Assembly: GCA_016873935.1 (NCBI GenBank)
Contig: VGVT01000012.1
Coordinates: 1-62,236 of the forward strand
Length of the DNA stretch: 62,236 nt
Reading direction: 5' to 3'
Source: Betaproteobacteria bacterium
Lineage (GTDB): Bacteria > Pseudomonadota > Gammaproteobacteria > Burkholderiales > Thiobacillaceae
Positions 14,259 through 22,214 of this stretch are shown here, in pieces; the first letter of the stretch is position 1, and every line of letters starts with the position of its first letter. A program made the translations under genes and the position numbers. Under the pieces are notes generated by a model, which searched no databases, was not told the origin of the DNA, and worked only from the letters and a program-made list of their open reading frames with translations.

Positions 14259-14451
14259 CGCAACAGTAGAAACGCCCCCCGCTGAGGATGGCCTCCGAGC
14301 GGGGCAGGTTCACCCCGCAGGTCTTGCAGCGCACCATGTCTTCCGCCGCCGGGGCTTCGCGGGTGTCGGCGGCATCGCGCTTCCGTATCATGCGACGGTA
14401 GAGATAGACGCCGAGCAGGACCAGCAGGATGAGGGTGATCAGCTTACCCAC
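14233..14451 (-). CDS. Small membrane-anchored zinc-finger-like protein (PP0621 family)
   Basis: A 72-aa protein with one N-terminal membrane helix (LITLILLVLLGVYLYRRM), a short linker, and a Cys-rich end (CKTCGVNLPRSEA, then FYCCDEH) that could bind a metal. This matches the small PP0621-type proteins often found before pilS. The start is GTG at 14451; the gene overlaps both its upstream neighbour (8 bases) and pilS (26 bases). Function unknown. Confidence 0.75.
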   Translation of the reverse strand: MGKLITLILLVLLGVYLYRRMIRKRDAADTREAPAAEDMVRCKTCGVNLPRSEAILSGGRFYCCDEHRRADS

Positions 14452-14752
14452 GCGACAGCCCGTCCTTGTGCGCCTGGTTGACCACCACCAGCAGTTGCTT
14501 GAAGGGGATCTCCCGGCCCCAGCGGTTGAGGAACTGCATGTAGGGCAGATCCTTGCCGGTGGGAAACTGGTATTGGTCCGAGATCATGTCGTCGTAGAGC
14601 TTGCGCAACACGCCATCCAGGTGGTCCAGCATGTTTGACCAACGCTCCGCGTTCTCCGGATCGTAGTCGATGCCGGCGCGCATCTCGTCGATTTCGTACA
14701 CCGCCTGGTGCACCAGATCCACGTATTCGTCGTAGGTTTTCGGGCCTTTCAT
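14444..14752 (-). CDS. Conserved hypothetical protein, 102 aa
   Basis: A soluble, acidic, mostly helical 102-aa protein (MKGPKTYDEYVDLVHQAVYE...). It has no signal peptide, membrane helix or Cys motif. It heads the run that leads into the PP0621-type gene, pilS and pilR, so it may be co-transcribed with them. I do not recognise a function. Confidence 0.65.
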   Translation of the reverse strand: MKGPKTYDEYVDLVHQAVYEIDEMRAGIDYDPENAERWSNMLDHLDGVLRKLYDDMISDQYQFPTGKDLPYMQFLNRWGREIPFKQLLVVVNQAHKDGLSRG

Positions 14753-14985: not shown

Positions 14986-15396
14986 ATGTACAAGAAATCC
15001 CTGCTCATGATCGCCTCCCTGGCCGTCTTCTCCAGCGGCGCCGCCCTGGCCGCCCCCGCCGACGACGCCTGCGCCGCCCTGATGGACGCGCGTGGCAACC
15101 TGGTCAAGATGCTCGACTCCACCGACAAGGCCATCAACGATGGCCTCAAGGCCAACATCGCCGCCGCCTCCGCCAAGCTCGACGCCACCCTGGCCGCAAT
15201 GGCGAAGAGCTACAACGCCGACGACGCGGCGAAGGCCGCCACCTTCAAGCCGACCTGGGAGGAATTCAAGGCAACCCGTGACGGCGAGATCGTGCCCCTG
15301 ATCTACGCTGGCAAGAACGCCGACGCCAAGGCCATCGGCACCGGCATCCAGGCCCAGCGCATGGGCAAGATGCGCGCCGCGATGGGCTGCAAGTAA
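14986..15396 (+). CDS. Secreted four-helix-bundle protein
   Basis: A 136-aa protein. A signal peptide of about 22 residues ends at GAALA-APADD; the mature part is all helical. Its pattern (TFKPTWEEFKATRDGEIVPLI, then repeated Ala/Lys helices) resembles stand-alone versions of the four-helix ligand domain of chemoreceptors. It has one Cys near each end of the mature chain (DDAC, MGCK) and no CxxCH, so it is not a cytochrome c'. The ATG at 14986 follows AAAGGA. An FNR-type box lies upstream and a strong terminator downstream, so it is a single-gene unit. Function not known. Confidence 0.7.
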   Translation: MYKKSLLMIASLAVFSSGAALAAPADDACAALMDARGNLVKMLDSTDKAINDGLKANIAAASAKLDATLAAMAKSYNADDAAKAATFKPTWEEFKATRDGEIVPLIYAGKNADAKAIGTGIQAQRMGKMRAAMGCK

Positions 15397-15408: not shown

Positions 15409-15442
15409 AAACGAAAACAGGGGCCTCGGCCCCTGTTTTCGT
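15409..15442. terminator. Rho-independent terminator, bidirectional
   Basis: A perfect 15-bp stem (aacgaaaacaggggc) with a CTCG loop, 12 bases after the four-helix gene. The stem ends in TTTT on both strands, so it could also end transcription arriving from the hdrB side. Confidence 0.85.
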
Positions 15443-15456
15443 TCCTGAGAGCAGGC

Positions 15457-15640
15457 CTATTTGCCAGCGAACTCTTACAGCTTGCGAGCCCGCACCACGT
15501 TGCCGTTGAGGCCCGCTTCCTTGGCGGAGCCACCTTAGGCCAGGGTCATCAGCTGCGAGTAGTAGAGCACCGGGATGTCGAACTTGGTGCCGTAGCGCTT
15601 GTTGATCTGGCCCTGGTAGACCTCGACGTTGGCCTGGCAC
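15457..15640 (-). pseudogene. Fragment of the hdrB 3' end
   Basis: Positions 15461-15640 match 21322-21501 (the end of the intact hdrB) with only 4 differences in 180 bases. One (15535) turns TAC into the stop TAA. The copy ends with Lys then TAG. It breaks off sharply at 15640, so only about the last 60 codons are present. With the intact hdrB it forms a direct repeat bracketing the MoxR segment. Confidence 0.9.
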
Positions 15641-15734
15641 GATCGTGTCCCTGGACGTGGTGTAAGAAGCGATCAGGCGGTCGGCGTGAACCCATTGCTT
15701 GGTTTGGGCTCTCGCGTAGCGACATCCCGGCGTC

Positions 15735-15832
15735 GGCGCGGGGCTTGTTCCGCTAGCGCCGCACTGCCCTGAAACGACAACGGGGCACCTCTCGTTTCAT
15801 GCACGCACCGCGGGCAAGCCCGTTCCTACGCC
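15735..15832. repeat. REP-like palindromic region
   Basis: Two related GC-rich sequences in opposite orientation lie at 15735-15760 and 15808-15832 (core gcgggcaagcccgttcct). Between them is a small hairpin (gaaacga ... tcgtttc, 15771-15798). The core resembles REP sequences of pseudomonads. It follows the end of the minus-strand operon and may act as its terminator. Apart from this and the hdrB fragment, the gap 15397-15878 holds nothing I can recognise. Confidence 0.4.
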
Positions 15833-15878
15833 GCTTTCCGATGCACCATTCCGGCTTGGCGGCCGGTCTAGGCGCGCC

Positions 15879-17300
15879 TCAGCGATAAGCGTGAATACGC
15901 AGATAGAGCGCCCGCATGCGCGCGATAGGCTCTGGACTCATATCGCCTGCGCCGTAGCGGGCATCCTCGAATAACCGGGTCAACTCCGCGGCCTCGCGGT
16001 ACAAGTGGCCCTGGCGTTCGCGCAACTGGGCCAAGTAGTCGCTGGCATTGGCCAGATTGGATCGCCGGACATCCTGGAGCTCAAACAAGCGTCCCATGGC
16101 CTGATAGAGGCGGTGGGCTGCTAGCCGTCCTTCGCCATGCCAGCCAAGGATACCGTAGCGCAGAAACTCGTAGCGCGCGCGCAGCCAGATGTCCGCCTTG
16201 GCCTCCCGAAGAAGGCGCCACACGGCGAAACAAAGCGCCAGGATCGCGAGCAGGGCCATGGCCAGGGCAATCTGCTTCAGGTGTTGGGCCAACCACTCCT
16301 TGAAAGATTGCCAAAGCTTGTCCAGGTACCTCGTGATGGGTTGCAAGGTCAGGTTCATCCACTCGCCGGCCGCCGCCACGTGATTGATCGTGCTCTTCTG
16401 CCATTGGGGCATGCCTTCGCGTTTCGCCGCCAGACGCATCTCGGCCGGGCTTGGCCAGCCCCCTCCCGGGCGCATGCCCAGGCCGCTCCCGGATTCTCCC
16501 GTCCCCCCGCCATAGCCTTGGCCCAGACCGTCTCGACCTGCCGCGGCTTTTCCCTGATCCTGTCCACTTGCGCCATGTCCCTCTCCCCCCGGCCGGTCGC
16601 CCTGTGCAAGTTCCGATTCCGGCGTAAACCAGCCCAGGCTGCTCAGCTGGCCGAAGCGCCATTGCAGGTAAGGCCAGGTCGGTTGCGGTGTGAGGGTATA
16701 GAGCAAGGTACCCAGCAGCAGGATGGTCGTGGTGGCGGCTGCGATGGCCGCGTACTGGCCGCCCGCCACGGCCTGTGCCAGGCTCTGCTGGCGCAGGTCC
16801 TGGGCGCGGCGGTTGATCTGCTCCGCCACCAGGGTAAACACCACCGCCGCCACGTAGGGCACCAGGTAAAACAGCATGGTCCAGTCGGCGCGGAAGTGGG
16901 TGGCGGCGAACATCACCATCACCGCCGAAACCAGCAGGCCCAGGTACAGTTGCCGCCGCGTCACGGTGACGCAGTTCTGGGCCGCCTGCAGCATGCCCAA
17001 CATGGCGATGCCGGCCCGGGGCAGTCCCCACATGGGCAGAAACAGGATCAAGGTCAAGATGAGCGCCAACACCAGTACCGTCTTCTGGCCCAGCCTACCG
17101 TCGTCGCCGAGCTGGCCCCGCTGGCGCCAGCCCACCCGCAGGGTCAGACCAAACACCACGGCCCACATCAGGACCTCTAGCCCGAAACTCCCATGATGGA
17201 TGTCGAGGAAGGCATTGCAGGTCACGGCCAGCAGCAGCGAAGCAAACAGACCCACATAGGCGGGGAAGTAAGTAAGGGGCGGGGAGACGCCGGGCTTCAT
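15879..17300 (-). CDS. TgpA-like membrane protein lacking the transglutaminase domain
   Basis: A 473-aa protein. About six membrane helices fill the first 220 residues, like the N-terminal block of TgpA/DUF3488 proteins. A Gly-rich linker (about 245-310) and a periplasmic helical part follow, then one more helix (LALAMALLAILALCFAVW region) and a cytosolic tail resembling DUF4129 (RLYQAMGRLFELQDVRRSN). Normal family members carry a Cys-His-Asp transglutaminase domain where this has the linker; no such triad is visible. The ATG at 17300 overlaps the DUF58 stop. It likely acts with the MoxR and DUF58 partners at the membrane. Confidence 0.65.
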   Translation of the reverse strand: MKPGVSPPLTYFPAYVGLFASLLLAVTCNAFLDIHHGSFGLEVLMWAVVFGLTLRVGWRQRGQLGDDGRLGQKTVLVLALILTLILFLPMWGLPRAGIAMLGMLQAAQNCVTVTRRQLYLGLLVSAVMVMFAATHFRADWTMLFYLVPYVAAVVFTLVAEQINRRAQDLRQQSLAQAVAGGQYAAIAAATTTILLLGTLLYTLTPQPTWPYLQWRFGQLSSLGWFTPESELAQGDRPGGEGHGASGQDQGKAAAGRDGLGQGYGGGTGESGSGLGMRPGGGWPSPAEMRLAAKREGMPQWQKSTINHVAAAGEWMNLTLQPITRYLDKLWQSFKEWLAQHLKQIALAMALLAILALCFAVWRLLREAKADIWLRARYEFLRYGILGWHGEGRLAAHRLYQAMGRLFELQDVRRSNLANASDYLAQLRERQGHLYREAAELTRLFEDARYGAGDMSPEPIARMRALYLRIHAYR

Positions 17301-18586
17301 GGGTTGAACAGCCGAACCAGATCGTCGCCCCGGCGCACGTTCAGGCAATTGGCGCCCAGGTCCAGCAAGCCCGCCGGGCCAGCCTCCCCCTTGACCGTTC
17401 GCGGGGTGCCAGATCGGGCGTCCTGGAATGTCGCCCGGTTGAACACCACCGCCAGCAGGTTCGCCCCCTTGGCCCGCAGCAGGGCCAGAGCCAAAAGGGT
17501 ATCGGCCCGCTGGGCCTCGGGCTCGGAGAGGAACACCACCACCGTTTCTCCCTGCTGGCAATCCACGGCTACCTGCTCCAGCACCCGTGCATAGGGCGTA
17601 TCGCCGTCGGCCGCCACCACCGCCAGTTCGTCCAGCAGGCCCTGATAGTGGTGCTCTCCGCTGCCGGGAGGCAGGTAAAGGCCGCGCGCGCCCTGGCCCA
17701 TCAGACGCGTGGGGATGCCGTTGCCGGCGGCATGCTTGGCCGCGGAGGCGGTGATGCGCACGGAGTACTCGAAGGTGGATTCCCGTCCCTGGCCCAGGTT
17801 GGCGGCCGCCGACTGGTCGAGGACAAGATACAGGCAGGCGGAAGCCAGGGGCTCGAATTCCTTCACCATCAACTCGTTGAGCCGGGCCGTGGTGGGCCAG
17901 TGCACGTGGCGCGGATTGTCGCCTCTCCGGTATTCCCTGAGGCCCGAGAAATCCGCCGCGCCGGAACCCTCCGGCAACAGGAAACCGCCACGGTGGATCT
18001 GGCTGGGGGCGCCCTTGAGGGGCAGTGCCATGATGGGGAAGACGTCCGGGTAGATGCTCAGGGTCTGCACCCCGTCGTTGCGCTGCTGGCGCGCCTCCGC
18101 CAGGCCCAGGGGAAAGCTGGAGGCCAGGCCCACCGGCCCCAGGCGGTAGAAACCCCGCTTCTCGCACAGCACCGGCACCTCGAACCTGCGCGCGCCACCC
18201 CCCGGCACGTAGGTCACCACGCCCAGGGTCTTCTCGCCGCTATCCACGCGACCCTCCGCCGTGCCGACGAAGGGCAGCCGGTCCACCAGTTCCACCATGA
18301 AACGGGGCAGCCAGCCGTGGTTGGTGACCTCCACCTGGAAGGCGATGGTGTCGCCTTCCTCCGCCCGCTCAGGCCCGCTGCGGGTCACCGACAGGCGCTT
18401 GACCAGCCAGTGGGGCCAGGAAATACCGGTGATGAGGGTGGCGGAGAGCAGGGCGGCGATGGCCCAGGGCAGGGCCTGGGCCCGGTTGATGGCGGCCACG
18501 TAGGCCACCAGGATGAGCAGGCACAGCACCAGGGGCTTGACGTGGCGGGGTTGCCAGGCGGGCAGGGTGAGGCCGGGGGATTTCAT
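17297..18586 (-). CDS. DUF58-domain membrane protein
   Basis: A 429-aa protein with two N-terminal membrane helices, a beta-rich middle region, and the DUF58 core (DFSGLREYRRGDNPRHVHW, then LMVKEFEP) around residues 230-260, followed by a von Willebrand A-like domain. DUF58 proteins are standard partners of MoxR ATPases. ATG 18586 is chosen; a GTG at 18598 is also possible. It is coupled to the next gene (ATGA). Confidence 0.8.
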   Translation of the reverse strand: MKSPGLTLPAWQPRHVKPLVLCLLILVAYVAAINRAQALPWAIAALLSATLITGISWPHWLVKRLSVTRSGPERAEEGDTIAFQVEVTNHGWLPRFMVELVDRLPFVGTAEGRVDSGEKTLGVVTYVPGGGARRFEVPVLCEKRGFYRLGPVGLASSFPLGLAEARQQRNDGVQTLSIYPDVFPIMALPLKGAPSQIHRGGFLLPEGSGAADFSGLREYRRGDNPRHVHWPTTARLNELMVKEFEPLASACLYLVLDQSAAANLGQGRESTFEYSVRITASAAKHAAGNGIPTRLMGQGARGLYLPPGSGEHHYQGLLDELAVVAADGDTPYARVLEQVAVDCQQGETVVVFLSEPEAQRADTLLALALLRAKGANLLAVVFNRATFQDARSGTPRTVKGEAGPAGLLDLGANCLNVRRGDDLVRLFNP

Positions 18587-18601
18587 CGTGGCCAGCACAT
18601 C

Positions 18602-20149
18602 TCAGAAGATGTCCCAGGTCGGGTTATGGAAGCCGTCCTTCTTGGCCCGGGCCGCCGCCTCCGGGTCAATGGTCTGCAGGACCGGCAGGAGGCGATGGAA
18701 GAGGCCGACGCAACGGGTCTTTCGGTTTGCATCGGCATCGCTGTAGAAAGTGTTCCGGGCCAGGCGGACGAGGGTCGCTTCCGCCGTCTTGCTATCCCGC
18801 CTGGCCATCGCTTCGAAGACCTCGGCCAGACGCTCAACGGCCTGTTCAGCGAGGCCGGCCTCATCGCGTTCGATGCCTAGCGCCAGGACCGGCAGGCACC
18901 AGGCTGAATGCTGGGCTGCCAGCCAATCCACCAGCCCCCAGTAGGCCCGGACGGCCACCTCGACGATGGGGTGGCCTGGATTAGCCGGCAGGTCGACATT
19001 GCGGCCCTGGATGACTTTTTCGCTACGGGCGACGGAAACGGTTTCCAGAAGTTTCCGGGCGTGTTCCTGCAAGGCCCGGTCAGTTTCCAAGGCCAGTTCA
19101 CGATAACCGTCGGCCCATGTCGAAAAGCGGGTCATGGCCCGGCTGTGGAGCGCCGATCCGGGGACTGCATTTATCGCGACGGCACGAAACCAGCCCACCG
19201 CCTGCATCGGCTGTTCCGATCGCTCCGCGGCGGCGAACAGCCTTTCCAGCACGCTCGCATACCAGCCGGCATCGGGGTGGCCCCATTGCCCGAGCTGGTA
19301 ATAAACGCTACCTGCCTGCTGGTTATTCGCATACGGAGTGGCGGTTTCCAAGGCCAGCAACTCGTCGGCCACCCTGCGTAGGGCGTCGCTGGGGGGTGAG
19401 AAGGAAAAAACCGGGTGGCGGCCCAGGAAGAGATAGTTCGATAACACCGACTTGCAGAATGCCGGAGCCAGGGGTTTCAGGTTGCGGCCCAGGACCAGCA
19501 GCAGTTCGGGGTCCTCCTGGCTTGTGAACACCCAACCCGCGTTGCCGGATTTTGCCCGCAGCGGCTGGATCATGCGAAGGATGTATTTCGGGTCTACCTC
19601 CGATTCCTGCACGATGAGTTCGAGCAGGGCGTGCTCCAGGCCCTCTACCTTGTTGTATTTGTCCGGCCAAGTCTCGCGGATTGAGATTCCAAGTTCGATA
19701 CGGGTGCGGGAGGGTACATCGTCCTCCAGCAACCATGTGCAGACCCGACGGCCGGCCTCCTTGGCTAGGACGTAGTGCATGGAGGTGGTGGCCACCACGA
19801 TGGCGGCGATCTTGATGGCCGCCCGCGGTCGCCGGGCATGCAGGTCGTCCAGCTCTGCCAGGTAGCGCTCGGCACCCTCGCTCAGCTTCTTGGTCCAGTC
19901 TGGGCCGCCATACGTAGCGCTCTCCGGGAGTACCCTCAGATCACGGGCGTAGGGCGCGAAGCGGAACCAGGGTTCGTGCGCCATGAGCTTGCGGCGATAG
20001 GCATCGTGCTTTTGGATATCTTCGCTGGAGCCGTAAAAACGGAAACTCCAGCGCAACTCGCCTGATTTCGTCCTGCCGAAGGTGCCGCCACCGGGGATCT
20101 TCGGGGGATAGACGAGGCGGAGTGTCTGATCGATCAGGGTCATCAGCAT
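18602..20149 (-). CDS. Unrecognised 515-aa protein between moxR and DUF58 genes
   Basis: A soluble protein of 515 aa with no signal peptide or clear membrane helix. It starts MLMTLIDQTLRLVYPPKIPGG and ends KDGFHNPTWDIF. After residue 100 it looks almost wholly helical, with repeated amphipathic segments that suggest a helical-repeat scaffold. I recognise no catalytic motif. It sits in the slot between moxR (24 bases away) and DUF58 (16 bases), so it is probably part of that operon. Its codon use looks less GC-biased than the housekeeping genes, consistent with transfer. An in-frame ATG at 20143 is an alternative start. Confidence 0.75.
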   Translation of the reverse strand: MLMTLIDQTLRLVYPPKIPGGGTFGRTKSGELRWSFRFYGSSEDIQKHDAYRRKLMAHEPWFRFAPYARDLRVLPESATYGGPDWTKKLSEGAERYLAELDDLHARRPRAAIKIAAIVVATTSMHYVLAKEAGRRVCTWLLEDDVPSRTRIELGISIRETWPDKYNKVEGLEHALLELIVQESEVDPKYILRMIQPLRAKSGNAGWVFTSQEDPELLLVLGRNLKPLAPAFCKSVLSNYLFLGRHPVFSFSPPSDALRRVADELLALETATPYANNQQAGSVYYQLGQWGHPDAGWYASVLERLFAAAERSEQPMQAVGWFRAVAINAVPGSALHSRAMTRFSTWADGYRELALETDRALQEHARKLLETVSVARSEKVIQGRNVDLPANPGHPIVEVAVRAYWGLVDWLAAQHSAWCLPVLALGIERDEAGLAEQAVERLAEVFEAMARRDSKTAEATLVRLARNTFYSDADANRKTRCVGLFHRLLPVLQTIDPEAAARAKKDGFHNPTWDIF

Positions 20150-20172
20150 GGCGGCACCTTTTTGGATTCCAC

Positions 20173-21102
20173 TCAGACCGGTGGGGCCAGTTTGTCGAGG
20201 ATTTCCTTGAGAATGCCCTTCGCGGTCTGCCCCATGGCTGCGGCCTGGGGCCGGACGATGAGGCGGTGCTCCAGCACCGGCCCCGCCATGGCCTTGACCA
20301 TGTCCGGGGTGACGTACTCCCGGCCGCGCAGGTAGGCCAACCCTTGCGACCCCCGGGCCAGGGCCAGGGTGCCTCGGGGGCTGGCGCCCAGGCGCAGGTC
20401 GGCGTGGGTGCGGGTGGCGGCGGTGATGCGGGCGGCATACTCGGCCACATCCGGCGCCAGGTGCACTGCCTTCACCGCCCCCCGGGCGGCCAGTACCTCG
20501 GCCTCGTCGGTGACGGGCTCCAGAGTCTCGATGGGGTGCGCCTGGGCCTGGGCGCCGAGGATGCGCAGTTCCTCCTCCAGGGTGGGATAGCCCACGGCCA
20601 GACGCACGAAGAAACGGTCCAGTTGGGCCTCCGGCAGGGCGTGGGTGCCGGCCATGTCGATGGGATTCTGGGTGGCCAGCACCATGAAGGTCTTGGGCAG
20701 TTCGTAGGTGGTGCCGTCCACGCTGACGCTGAACTCCTCCATGCATTCCAGCAGGGCAGACTGAGCACGAGGCGTGGCGCGGTTGATCTCGTCAGCCAGC
20801 AGAATGTGGGTAAACACCGGGCCGGGGCGGAACTCGAATTCGCCGGTCTTCTGGTTGTAGATGGGTACGCCGGTAATGTCCGATGGCAGCAGATCCGGCG
20901 TGCATTGCAGGCGCTTCATGTCCACCGCCACCGAGCGGGCCAGGGCGCGGGCCAGCATGGTCTTGCCCGTGCCCGGCACATCCTCCAGCAGCACGTGGCC
21001 GCGGCACAGCAGGGAGATGACGGCCAGCTCGATGACGGGTCGCTTGCCGACGATGACTCGCTCGACGTTGTCGATGAGCGCATGGATGGCGTTCCGGTGC
21101 AC
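20173..21102 (-). CDS. moxR: MoxR-family AAA+ ATPase
   Basis: A 309-aa AAA+ ATPase with Walker A (DVPGTGKTM, residues 41-49), Walker B (ILLADEINR, 100-108), sensor motif (VLATQNPID) and the C-terminal lid of the MoxR family. MoxR proteins act as chaperone-like ATPases that mature metalloproteins or periplasmic complexes, usually with DUF58 or VWA partners, as here. The start is GTG at 21102, preceded by AGGGAGAT. It is first in a four-gene run. Confidence 0.93.
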   Translation of the reverse strand: MHRNAIHALIDNVERVIVGKRPVIELAVISLLCRGHVLLEDVPGTGKTMLARALARSVAVDMKRLQCTPDLLPSDITGVPIYNQKTGEFEFRPGPVFTHILLADEINRATPRAQSALLECMEEFSVSVDGTTYELPKTFMVLATQNPIDMAGTHALPEAQLDRFFVRLAVGYPTLEEELRILGAQAQAHPIETLEPVTDEAEVLAARGAVKAVHLAPDVAEYAARITAATRTHADLRLGASPRGTLALARGSQGLAYLRGREYVTPDMVKAMAGPVLEHRLIVRPQAAAMGQTAKGILKEILDKLAPPV

Positions 21103-21270
21103 GGCTTGCTATCTCCCTGGTTTCGTTATTTGGTCCGCGTGGCTGGTTGCTACGCGGCCCGCGGCGGGGATCGAATTTTAGCTTATCCGGCGCACCCAAT
21201 CACCGGCTCCGCCGTATCCTGGCCGATCCATCGTGGCGCTTAGCTTGGCGGACCCGGCAAGTACAATAAT

Positions 21271-21298
21271 GCAAACGGGCGCCTTGGCGCCCGTTTGC
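21271..21298 (-). terminator. Terminator of the qmo-hdr operon
   Basis: A 12-bp stem (gcaaacgggcgc) with a CTTG loop, 20 bases after the hdrB stop, ending in GTTTGC on the minus strand. It has the same layout as the hairpin at 15409-15442, beside the hdrB fragment, but a different sequence. Confidence 0.75.
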
Positions 21299-21317
21299 CG
21301 TTGAGAGGCGGGACGAC

Positions 21318-22214
21318 TCACTTGCCGGCGAACTCTTCCAGCTTGCGAGCCTGCACCACGTTGCCGTTGAGGCCCGCTTCCTTGGCGGAGCCACCGTAGG
21401 CCAGGGTCATCAGCTGCGAGTAGTAGAGCACCGGGATGTCGAACTTGGTGCCGTAGCGCTTGTTGATCTGGCCCTGGTAGACCTCGACGTTGGCCTGGCA
21501 CAGCGGGCATGGCGTGACGATCATCTCGGCGCCACCGTCATAGGCGGCCTCGATGATGTCCTTGATCTGGCCCTGCGCCTTGTCCGGCTCGGAGAAGGCC
21601 AGGGCGCCGCCGCAGCAGGTCACCTTCTGGTCGTACTTGACCGCTTCGCCGCCCACGGTCTCGATGAGCTTGTCGAGGTACATGGGGTTCTCGAAGGATT
21701 CGCCGGCGATGCCAAAGGGACGGTTGGTCTGGCAGCCAACGTAGCCGGCGAACTTCATGCCCTGCAGGGGCTTCTTCACCGGCTTCTTGAGTTCGTCGTA
21801 GCCCAGGTCCTCGATCAGCACCTCGACCATGTGGCGCACTTCGGGGATCACCTTGATGGCGAGGCCGGCTTCCTTCAGCGCGGTCTGCGTGTCGGCCATC
21901 AGGCGGTCGCTGTGCTCCAGGCGCTCCTTCGATTCCCGCGCGCCCAGCCAGCAGGCGGCGCAGGTCGCGACGATGTCCTGGCCGGGCAGGTTGGTCTCGG
22001 CCAGGGCGAAGTTGCGGGCGTTCATCACGTGGCGCGGCAGTTCGCCGGCCTCGGCATAGCTGATGGAGGCGCCACAGCAGTTCCAGTCGGGGATCTCGGT
22101 CATCCTGATGTCCAGGGTCTTGCACATGGACTCGACGGAAACCAGGTAGTTGGAGGCCGAGGCGCCCTTCTGGGACGAGCAGCCGGGGTAGAAAGCGTAT
22201 TCCTTGCGTGCCAT
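21318..22214 (-). CDS. hdrB: Heterodisulfide reductase subunit B-like protein HdrB
   Basis: A 298-aa protein with two complete CCG motifs: C12, C46-C47, C85, C88 and C161, C200-C201, C236, C239. These hold the non-cubane iron-sulfur clusters of HdrB-type subunits. It ends the qmoA-qmoB-hdrC-hdrB operon, where HdrBC replaces the membrane subunit QmoC. The likely role is electron transfer between quinone-side carriers and AprAB in dissimilatory sulfur metabolism. The last 60 codons are duplicated at 15461-15640. Confidence 0.88.
   Translation of the reverse strand: MARKEYAFYPGCSSQKGASASNYLVSVESMCKTLDIRMTEIPDWNCCGASISYAEAGELPRHVMNARNFALAETNLPGQDIVATCAACWLGARESKERLEHSDRLMADTQTALKEAGLAIKVIPEVRHMVEVLIEDLGYDELKKPVKKPLQGMKFAGYVGCQTNRPFGIAGESFENPMYLDKLIETVGGEAVKYDQKVTCCGGALAFSEPDKAQGQIKDIIEAAYDGGAEMIVTPCPLCQANVEVYQGQINKRYGTKFDIPVLYYSQLMTLAYGGSAKEAGLNGNVVQARKLEEFAGK

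Follow-up and report, generated by a model that had tools for sequence, protein, structure and literature searches.

A direct repeat of the hdrB 3' end brackets a MoxR gene segment and suggests integration by single crossover

The window, which is the whole stretch of 62,236 nucleotides that was analysed, holds the 3' end of hdrB twice with a run of four genes between the two copies, raising the question of how these genes entered the junction behind hdrB and which of the two ends is the older. The initial annotation had attributed the arrangement to foreign DNA that carried an hdrB end and integrated by single-crossover homologous recombination. This reading is supported by the repeat, by the gene order in relatives, one of which (G016) has the site uninterrupted, and by the intact hdrB and the decayed remnant, and, in the form of a circle recombining inside the hdrB 3' end, we place its probability at roughly 0.6.

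Two copies of the hdrB end and the segment between them

The hdrB gene closes a minus-strand cluster in which two HdrA-like flavoprotein genes and hdrC precede it, with similarities below curated cut-offs, and which we take to be QmoAB-HdrBC. This name agrees with PMC2211403. The intact hdrB (21318-22214, minus strand, PF02754) encodes 298 amino acids, and its last 184 nt form the second repeat copy; over residues 1-298, the protein is 98% identical to that in L033, a named record with the same coordinates as G015, the closest relative (95% identity in hdrB DNA). The order past hdrB is MoxR, an orphan open reading frame, DUF58, DUF4129, the hdrB remnant, a hairpin, a convergent gene for a small four-helix-bundle protein (14986-15396, plus strand; 4HB_MCP_1, PF12729, E 1.1e-9) and a gene for a conserved 102-aa protein (14444-14752, minus strand), which is the ancestral downstream neighbour of hdrB and was without a match in Pfam or NCBIfam. 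The four-helix protein is conserved at 97% in L033/G015 and at 70% in G016.

The 180-base repeat of the hdrB end with four differences, as previously described, was confirmed at 15461-15640 and 21322-21501, where the two copies lie in the same orientation with 98% identity and mismatches at 15466, 15477, 15491 and 15535. When the stop codon is included (15457-15640 versus 21318-21501), the repeat comprises 184 nt with 7 mismatches, all of which are outside an inner identical run of 105 nt. A 260-nt query (15441-15700) matched just two places in the 2.7-Mb assembly, the second with an E value of 2.7e-84, so that a chance repeat is excluded; this search found no third copy of the hdrB end in the genome, nor any other match in it to the first 60 bases of the non-coding segment end that adjoins the remnant (15641-15878).

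The intact copy completes hdrB, and the other is truncated, representing a decayed remnant of the gene's 3' end (15457-15640, minus strand, hdrB nt 714-897). A gapped alignment past its inner edge gave no hdrB similarity above that of shuffled sequences, 452 of 1000 of which scored as well. One of the four differences had been described as a stop, and this has to be corrected, because two of them make in-frame stops, with a tyrosine codon changed to TAA at repeat position 105 and a glutamate codon changed to TAA at position 163. Both nonsense changes are absent from relatives, as position 105 is C (93 rows) or T (16 rows) and position 163 is G in all 108 scored rows; at position 174, the T of the remnant occurs in no aligned row, and at position 149 the commoner base (G, 71 rows) is found in the remnant and the rarer one (A, 37 rows) in the intact gene. 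These counts omit loci of the own genome as well as rows with a query gap, and they include many genomes twice through two overlapping locus sets. Apart from the two nonsense changes, the other five mismatches all fall within the last 35 nt (P 2e-4 for random placement, the pattern having been picked post hoc). At 9 of the 11 positions within the 180 nt at which hdrB differs from that of G015, the intact and remnant copies agree, indicating that the duplication postdates the split from G015 or that the copies were kept alike by conversion.

Each copy was confirmed to be followed by its own hairpin, which is ACAGGGGCC..GGCCCCTGTTTT (15410-15443) 13 nt past the stop position of the remnant and GCAAACGGGCGCC..GGCGCCCGTTTGC (21271-21298) 19 nt past the stop of the intact hdrB. 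The hairpin on the remnant side is similar to those that follow hdrB in G007 and G014 and to the one that follows a second remnant, in G021, and the one behind the intact gene is of another type, GGGCGCC..GGCGCCC, with similar hairpins in G015, G016 and G020 and also at the other hdrB end of G021. As for the earlier suggestion that the old end decayed beside the original hdrB terminator, the identity of the remnant-side hairpin as that terminator is likely but not certain, because the same type is also found beside the four-helix gene in G015. The hairpin types thus support, without proving, which hdrB end is the older, given that the first type occurs in G015 as well and that such hairpins are common.

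The segment itself was previously described as a run of moxR, an unknown gene, DUF58 and a TgpA-like gene, all on the minus strand. The first three designations stand, for a MoxR-family AAA ATPase (20173-21102, PF07726, E 2.8e-60), an open reading frame of ~515 aa with no match in Pfam, NCBIfam or PADLOC (18602-20149), lying between moxR and the DUF58 gene, and a DUF58 protein (17297-18598, PF01882, E 2.1e-17). The fourth is only partly apt, because the protein (15879-17300) has a C-terminal DUF4129 (PF13559, E 1.2e-6) as its sole Pfam match at E 0.001 and no transglutaminase match. PADLOC gave only weak MoxR matches in the segment. Among 61 genomes, the whole segment was found in the window's own genome only (0 of 60 relatives), and the case that would have spoken against the initial annotation, namely the segment at the same place in a relative without the hdrB fragment, was not seen. 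Partial matches occur in 49 of the 60 relatives, mostly to the moxR part and with a longest stretch of ~640 nt, as expected of paralogues. The four segment proteins are absent from 112 hdrB loci, with flanks of up to 10 kb and many genomes included twice, save for three own-genome loci.

No donor was found in plasmids or the 60 relatives, nor, by way of the orphan and the DUF4129 protein, in 368 other genomes of the class, and the plasmid records searched held no free circle or circular donor. In those 368 genomes, the DUF4129 protein had one weak match (28%) and the orphan none; a weak match to the orphan (22%) was present in 1 of the 60 relatives. As an observation on the orphan in its own right, 18602-20149 had no clear relative in the collections searched, plasmids included. 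Its model, a low-confidence prediction with a pLDDT of 59, is mostly helical and was judged too weak for a structure search.

The junction behind hdrB among relatives

Of 14 family members from other genera, 11 have hdrB immediately in front of the 102-aa gene, with 72-185 bases between the matched ends of the two genes; in the remaining three, the genes are at contig ends (G023), separated by 8.5 kb (G029) or on separate contigs (G032). In the window's genus, both genes were placed in 22 genomes, including its own, with G011 represented by an hdrB fragment only; G013, which is without the 102-aa gene, is not among them. They are adjacent in four (G007, G010, G014 and G019), 1.9-6.6 kb apart in another four (G001, G002, G015 and the window), 114 kb apart on one contig in G016 and on different contigs in 13. 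The adjacency is thus broken in 18/22 genomes in the genus versus 2/13 resolved genomes outside it (Fisher P 2e-4, which is descriptive only as the genomes are related). In a DNA tree of qmoB-hdrC-hdrB covering 29 of 30 hdrB loci, with G023 left out and G011 and G021 without a locus in the set, the window genome joins G015 (100/97), and the adjacent and broken states are scattered, which suggests several independent breaks, 14 of the 26 inner branches not being strongly supported. The genes adjoining hdrB or the 102-aa gene vary between many genomes, as judged from heuristic clusters of open reading frames, so that the cargo next to these conserved genes is not the same from genome to genome. 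In the window's genus, insertions or breaks have recurred behind hdrB.

The initial annotation had predicted that a relative without the segment would have the four-helix gene directly facing hdrB, and this is the arrangement found in G016, with 335 bases from stop to stop. The 102-aa gene of G016 is far off, at 114 kb from hdrB on the same contig. As a side observation on this genome (L135, L190), that contig is without a Phage_integrase match, and both an insertion and a rearrangement are possible. In G015, as seen through L033, a different insert of ~5 kb lies between hdrB and the four-helix gene (L033 10961-15760), with genes for a PIN-domain protein, an S-adenosylmethionine decarboxylase, a deoxyhypusine-synthase-family protein, a SET-domain protein and a methyltransferase. 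No hdrB remnant was found at the site of this insert, indicating that remnants are not the rule. Both outer flanks of the window structure are collinear with L033/G015.

A second decayed hdrB end is present in G021, where it begins at ~nt 570, contains a deletion and a one-base gap, and lies ~75-85 bases before the 102-aa gene with a hairpin of the ACAGGGGCC..GGCCACTGTTTT type after it; this stretch aligns on into the 102-aa gene in the layout of G007. G021 has another hdrB end at the end of a different contig, with an open frame of 48 aa at 96% identity, another hairpin and TRAP-transporter genes behind it. Since the start of hdrB is on a third contig, with ~290 nt missing, the intact gene in G021 is a putative one. 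A scan for remnants around the 102-aa gene, in 30 loci drawn from 37 genomes that have the gene, gave a gene-end remnant in two loci only, G000 (the window genome) and G021, together with weak matches of 24-74 nt. The strongest of these, a 74-nt match in G016 (E 2e-4, inside the gene), was dropped, being absent when G016's own hdrB was used and equalled in 1 of 40 shuffles. No further remnants appeared when 80 named loci, some of which hold <300 bases behind hdrB, were scanned with their own hdrB, the resulting matches of 15-51 nt being taken as chance. An hdrB fragment in G011 was set aside, since it begins ~120-130 bases into a contig and the genome has 6% contamination. This fragment (L139 119-845) is an hdrB end that lacks the 5' part of the gene and contains a small insertion; an AT-rich stretch lies before it and a PIN-domain gene behind it, as behind hdrB in L033.

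The proposed single crossover and its alternatives

According to the single-crossover reading, the incoming DNA would have consisted of the final ~184 nt of an hdrB allele with the MoxR/orphan/DUF58/DUF4129 segment behind it and would have acted as a circle, for example as a fragment with joined ends; both this circular form and the manner in which the DNA was taken up are inferred. A single homologous crossover within the 3' end of hdrB would have completed the resident gene with the incoming end, which would have brought its own hairpin, and would have pushed the resident old end with the older hairpin 5.9 kb downstream to lie beside the four-helix gene, where the displaced end may then have gathered its two stop codons. 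The donor would probably have been a near relative, because the two copies agree at most of the positions that separate hdrB from that of G015. A direct repeat of the target sequence brackets the insert, and the site is uninterrupted in most family members of other genera and in G016. The more decayed remnant in G021, with an ancestral-type hairpin beside the 102-aa gene, also counts for this reading. Against it count the insert in G015, which lies there without a remnant, the failure of the searches to find a donor or free circle, the partial moxR-type matches in relatives, the Phage_integrase matches on relevant contigs of G003, G008 and G012, and the bunching of mismatches in the last 35 nt, which is not predicted by a simple crossover between two alleles. 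A gene of the ComEC family is present in the window genome and in 3 of 4 relatives tested, G021 being without it, but its presence says little, because the E. coli control has one too.

The mechanism is already known. In the E. coli experiments of PMC3240628, DNA homologous at one end gave a duplication PCR product in 56 of 60 Lac- clones, and the 14 clones sequenced had gene-end duplications of 109-950 bp, a range that includes 184, which were ascribed to loss of an end, closure and a single crossover. In both that system and the window, foreign DNA lies between the copies of a partly duplicated gene end, although the former involved a laboratory plasmid, lacZ and selection, whereas the latter is a natural locus with a decayed remnant and no known donor.

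The nearest rival is a one-sided event on linear DNA, in which a crossover in hdrB at one end would have been accompanied by illegitimate joining of the other end inside another hdrB copy, leaving the recipient's own hdrB end as a remnant. It would account for the identical inner 105 nt and would better account for the clustered non-nonsense differences, and a one-sided route has been proposed, in PMC5361080, for displaced effector modules in the T6SS clusters of Vibrio cholerae. We nevertheless regard it as doubtful, since only 4 of the 60 E. coli clones appeared one-sided, with a deletion predicted there, against the 56 with a duplication ascribed to single crossover (PMC3240628).

Elements that restore the gene they target typically leave repeats of its end. 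An integrative element inserted site-specifically at the 3' end of hdrB, with the repeats as its attL and attR, would fit this general pattern, and Phage_integrase was found, among the matches listed, on the contigs of the 102-aa gene in G003 (at 7 kb) and G008 (at 29 kb) and on that of hdrB in G012 (70 and 88 kb from hdrB). This explanation is improbable, because the four segment proteins include no recombinase match in Pfam and a search of 9 genomes, the window's own included, that covered Phage_integrase as the recombinase family found no match to it on contigs with hdrB or the 102-aa gene. Furthermore, in the two cases available, the G021 remnant extends further into the gene (~nt 570) than that of the window (nt 714).

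A history of two events has a similarly small probability. In it, the segment would have been gained between two hdrB ends that already existed as a duplication, or it would have arrived by another route and a copy of the hdrB end would have been added on its far side. The insert of G015, which sits there without a remnant, would be in keeping with such a history, but two events are required, and the copies differ in their stop codons and hairpins, the remnant's hairpin resembling those of relatives with the ancestral layout. A misassembly at the repeat, conceivable in an assembly of 121 contigs, is unlikely, as the identical stretch at the inner edge measures 105 nt, both outer flanks are collinear with L033/G015 and joining the contig the other way would leave hdrB with two stops in its end.

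Relation to other systems and a possible landing site

The single-crossover integration proposed for this locus leaves the known recombination mechanism unchanged; what is added here is the ancestral layout, the uninterrupted relative, the second remnant and the recurrently broken junction behind hdrB in the genus. A literature search showed no earlier account of this locus, which is no proof of absence. The structure can be compared with the displaced effector modules of Vibrio cholerae T6SS clusters and with displaced Rhs ends (PMC5361080), where a new module likewise joins a conserved gene and the older 3' part is displaced downstream. The exchanged end has a new function in that system, whereas the HdrB end in the window has hardly changed and it is the cargo behind it that differs. 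The gene-turnover hotspots of PMC5635113, many of which are without mobile elements, also have varied cargo beside the same conserved genes and, like the window segment, no recognised integrase. Double recombination in both flanks was proposed there, whereas the footprints here are one-sided in two genomes.

A broader view, which we offer tentatively and consider possible rather than probable, is that the hdrB 3' end serves as a recurrent, integrase-free landing site in the genus, where incoming DNA would be tolerated since the respiratory gene stays whole. Incoming DNA would bring its own hdrB end and hairpin, cargoes would be stacked or swapped, and the old ends, as in the window genome and G021, would remain as datable remnants. 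With a fresh and an older scar at hdrB, an uninterrupted relative and varied cargo, the locus would allow integrase-free uptake to be studied by comparison of natural genomes. As a separate observation, six members of the genus (L185, L188, L191, L192, L193 and L194) have a common gene run before the 102-aa gene, as judged from heuristic clusters of open reading frames.
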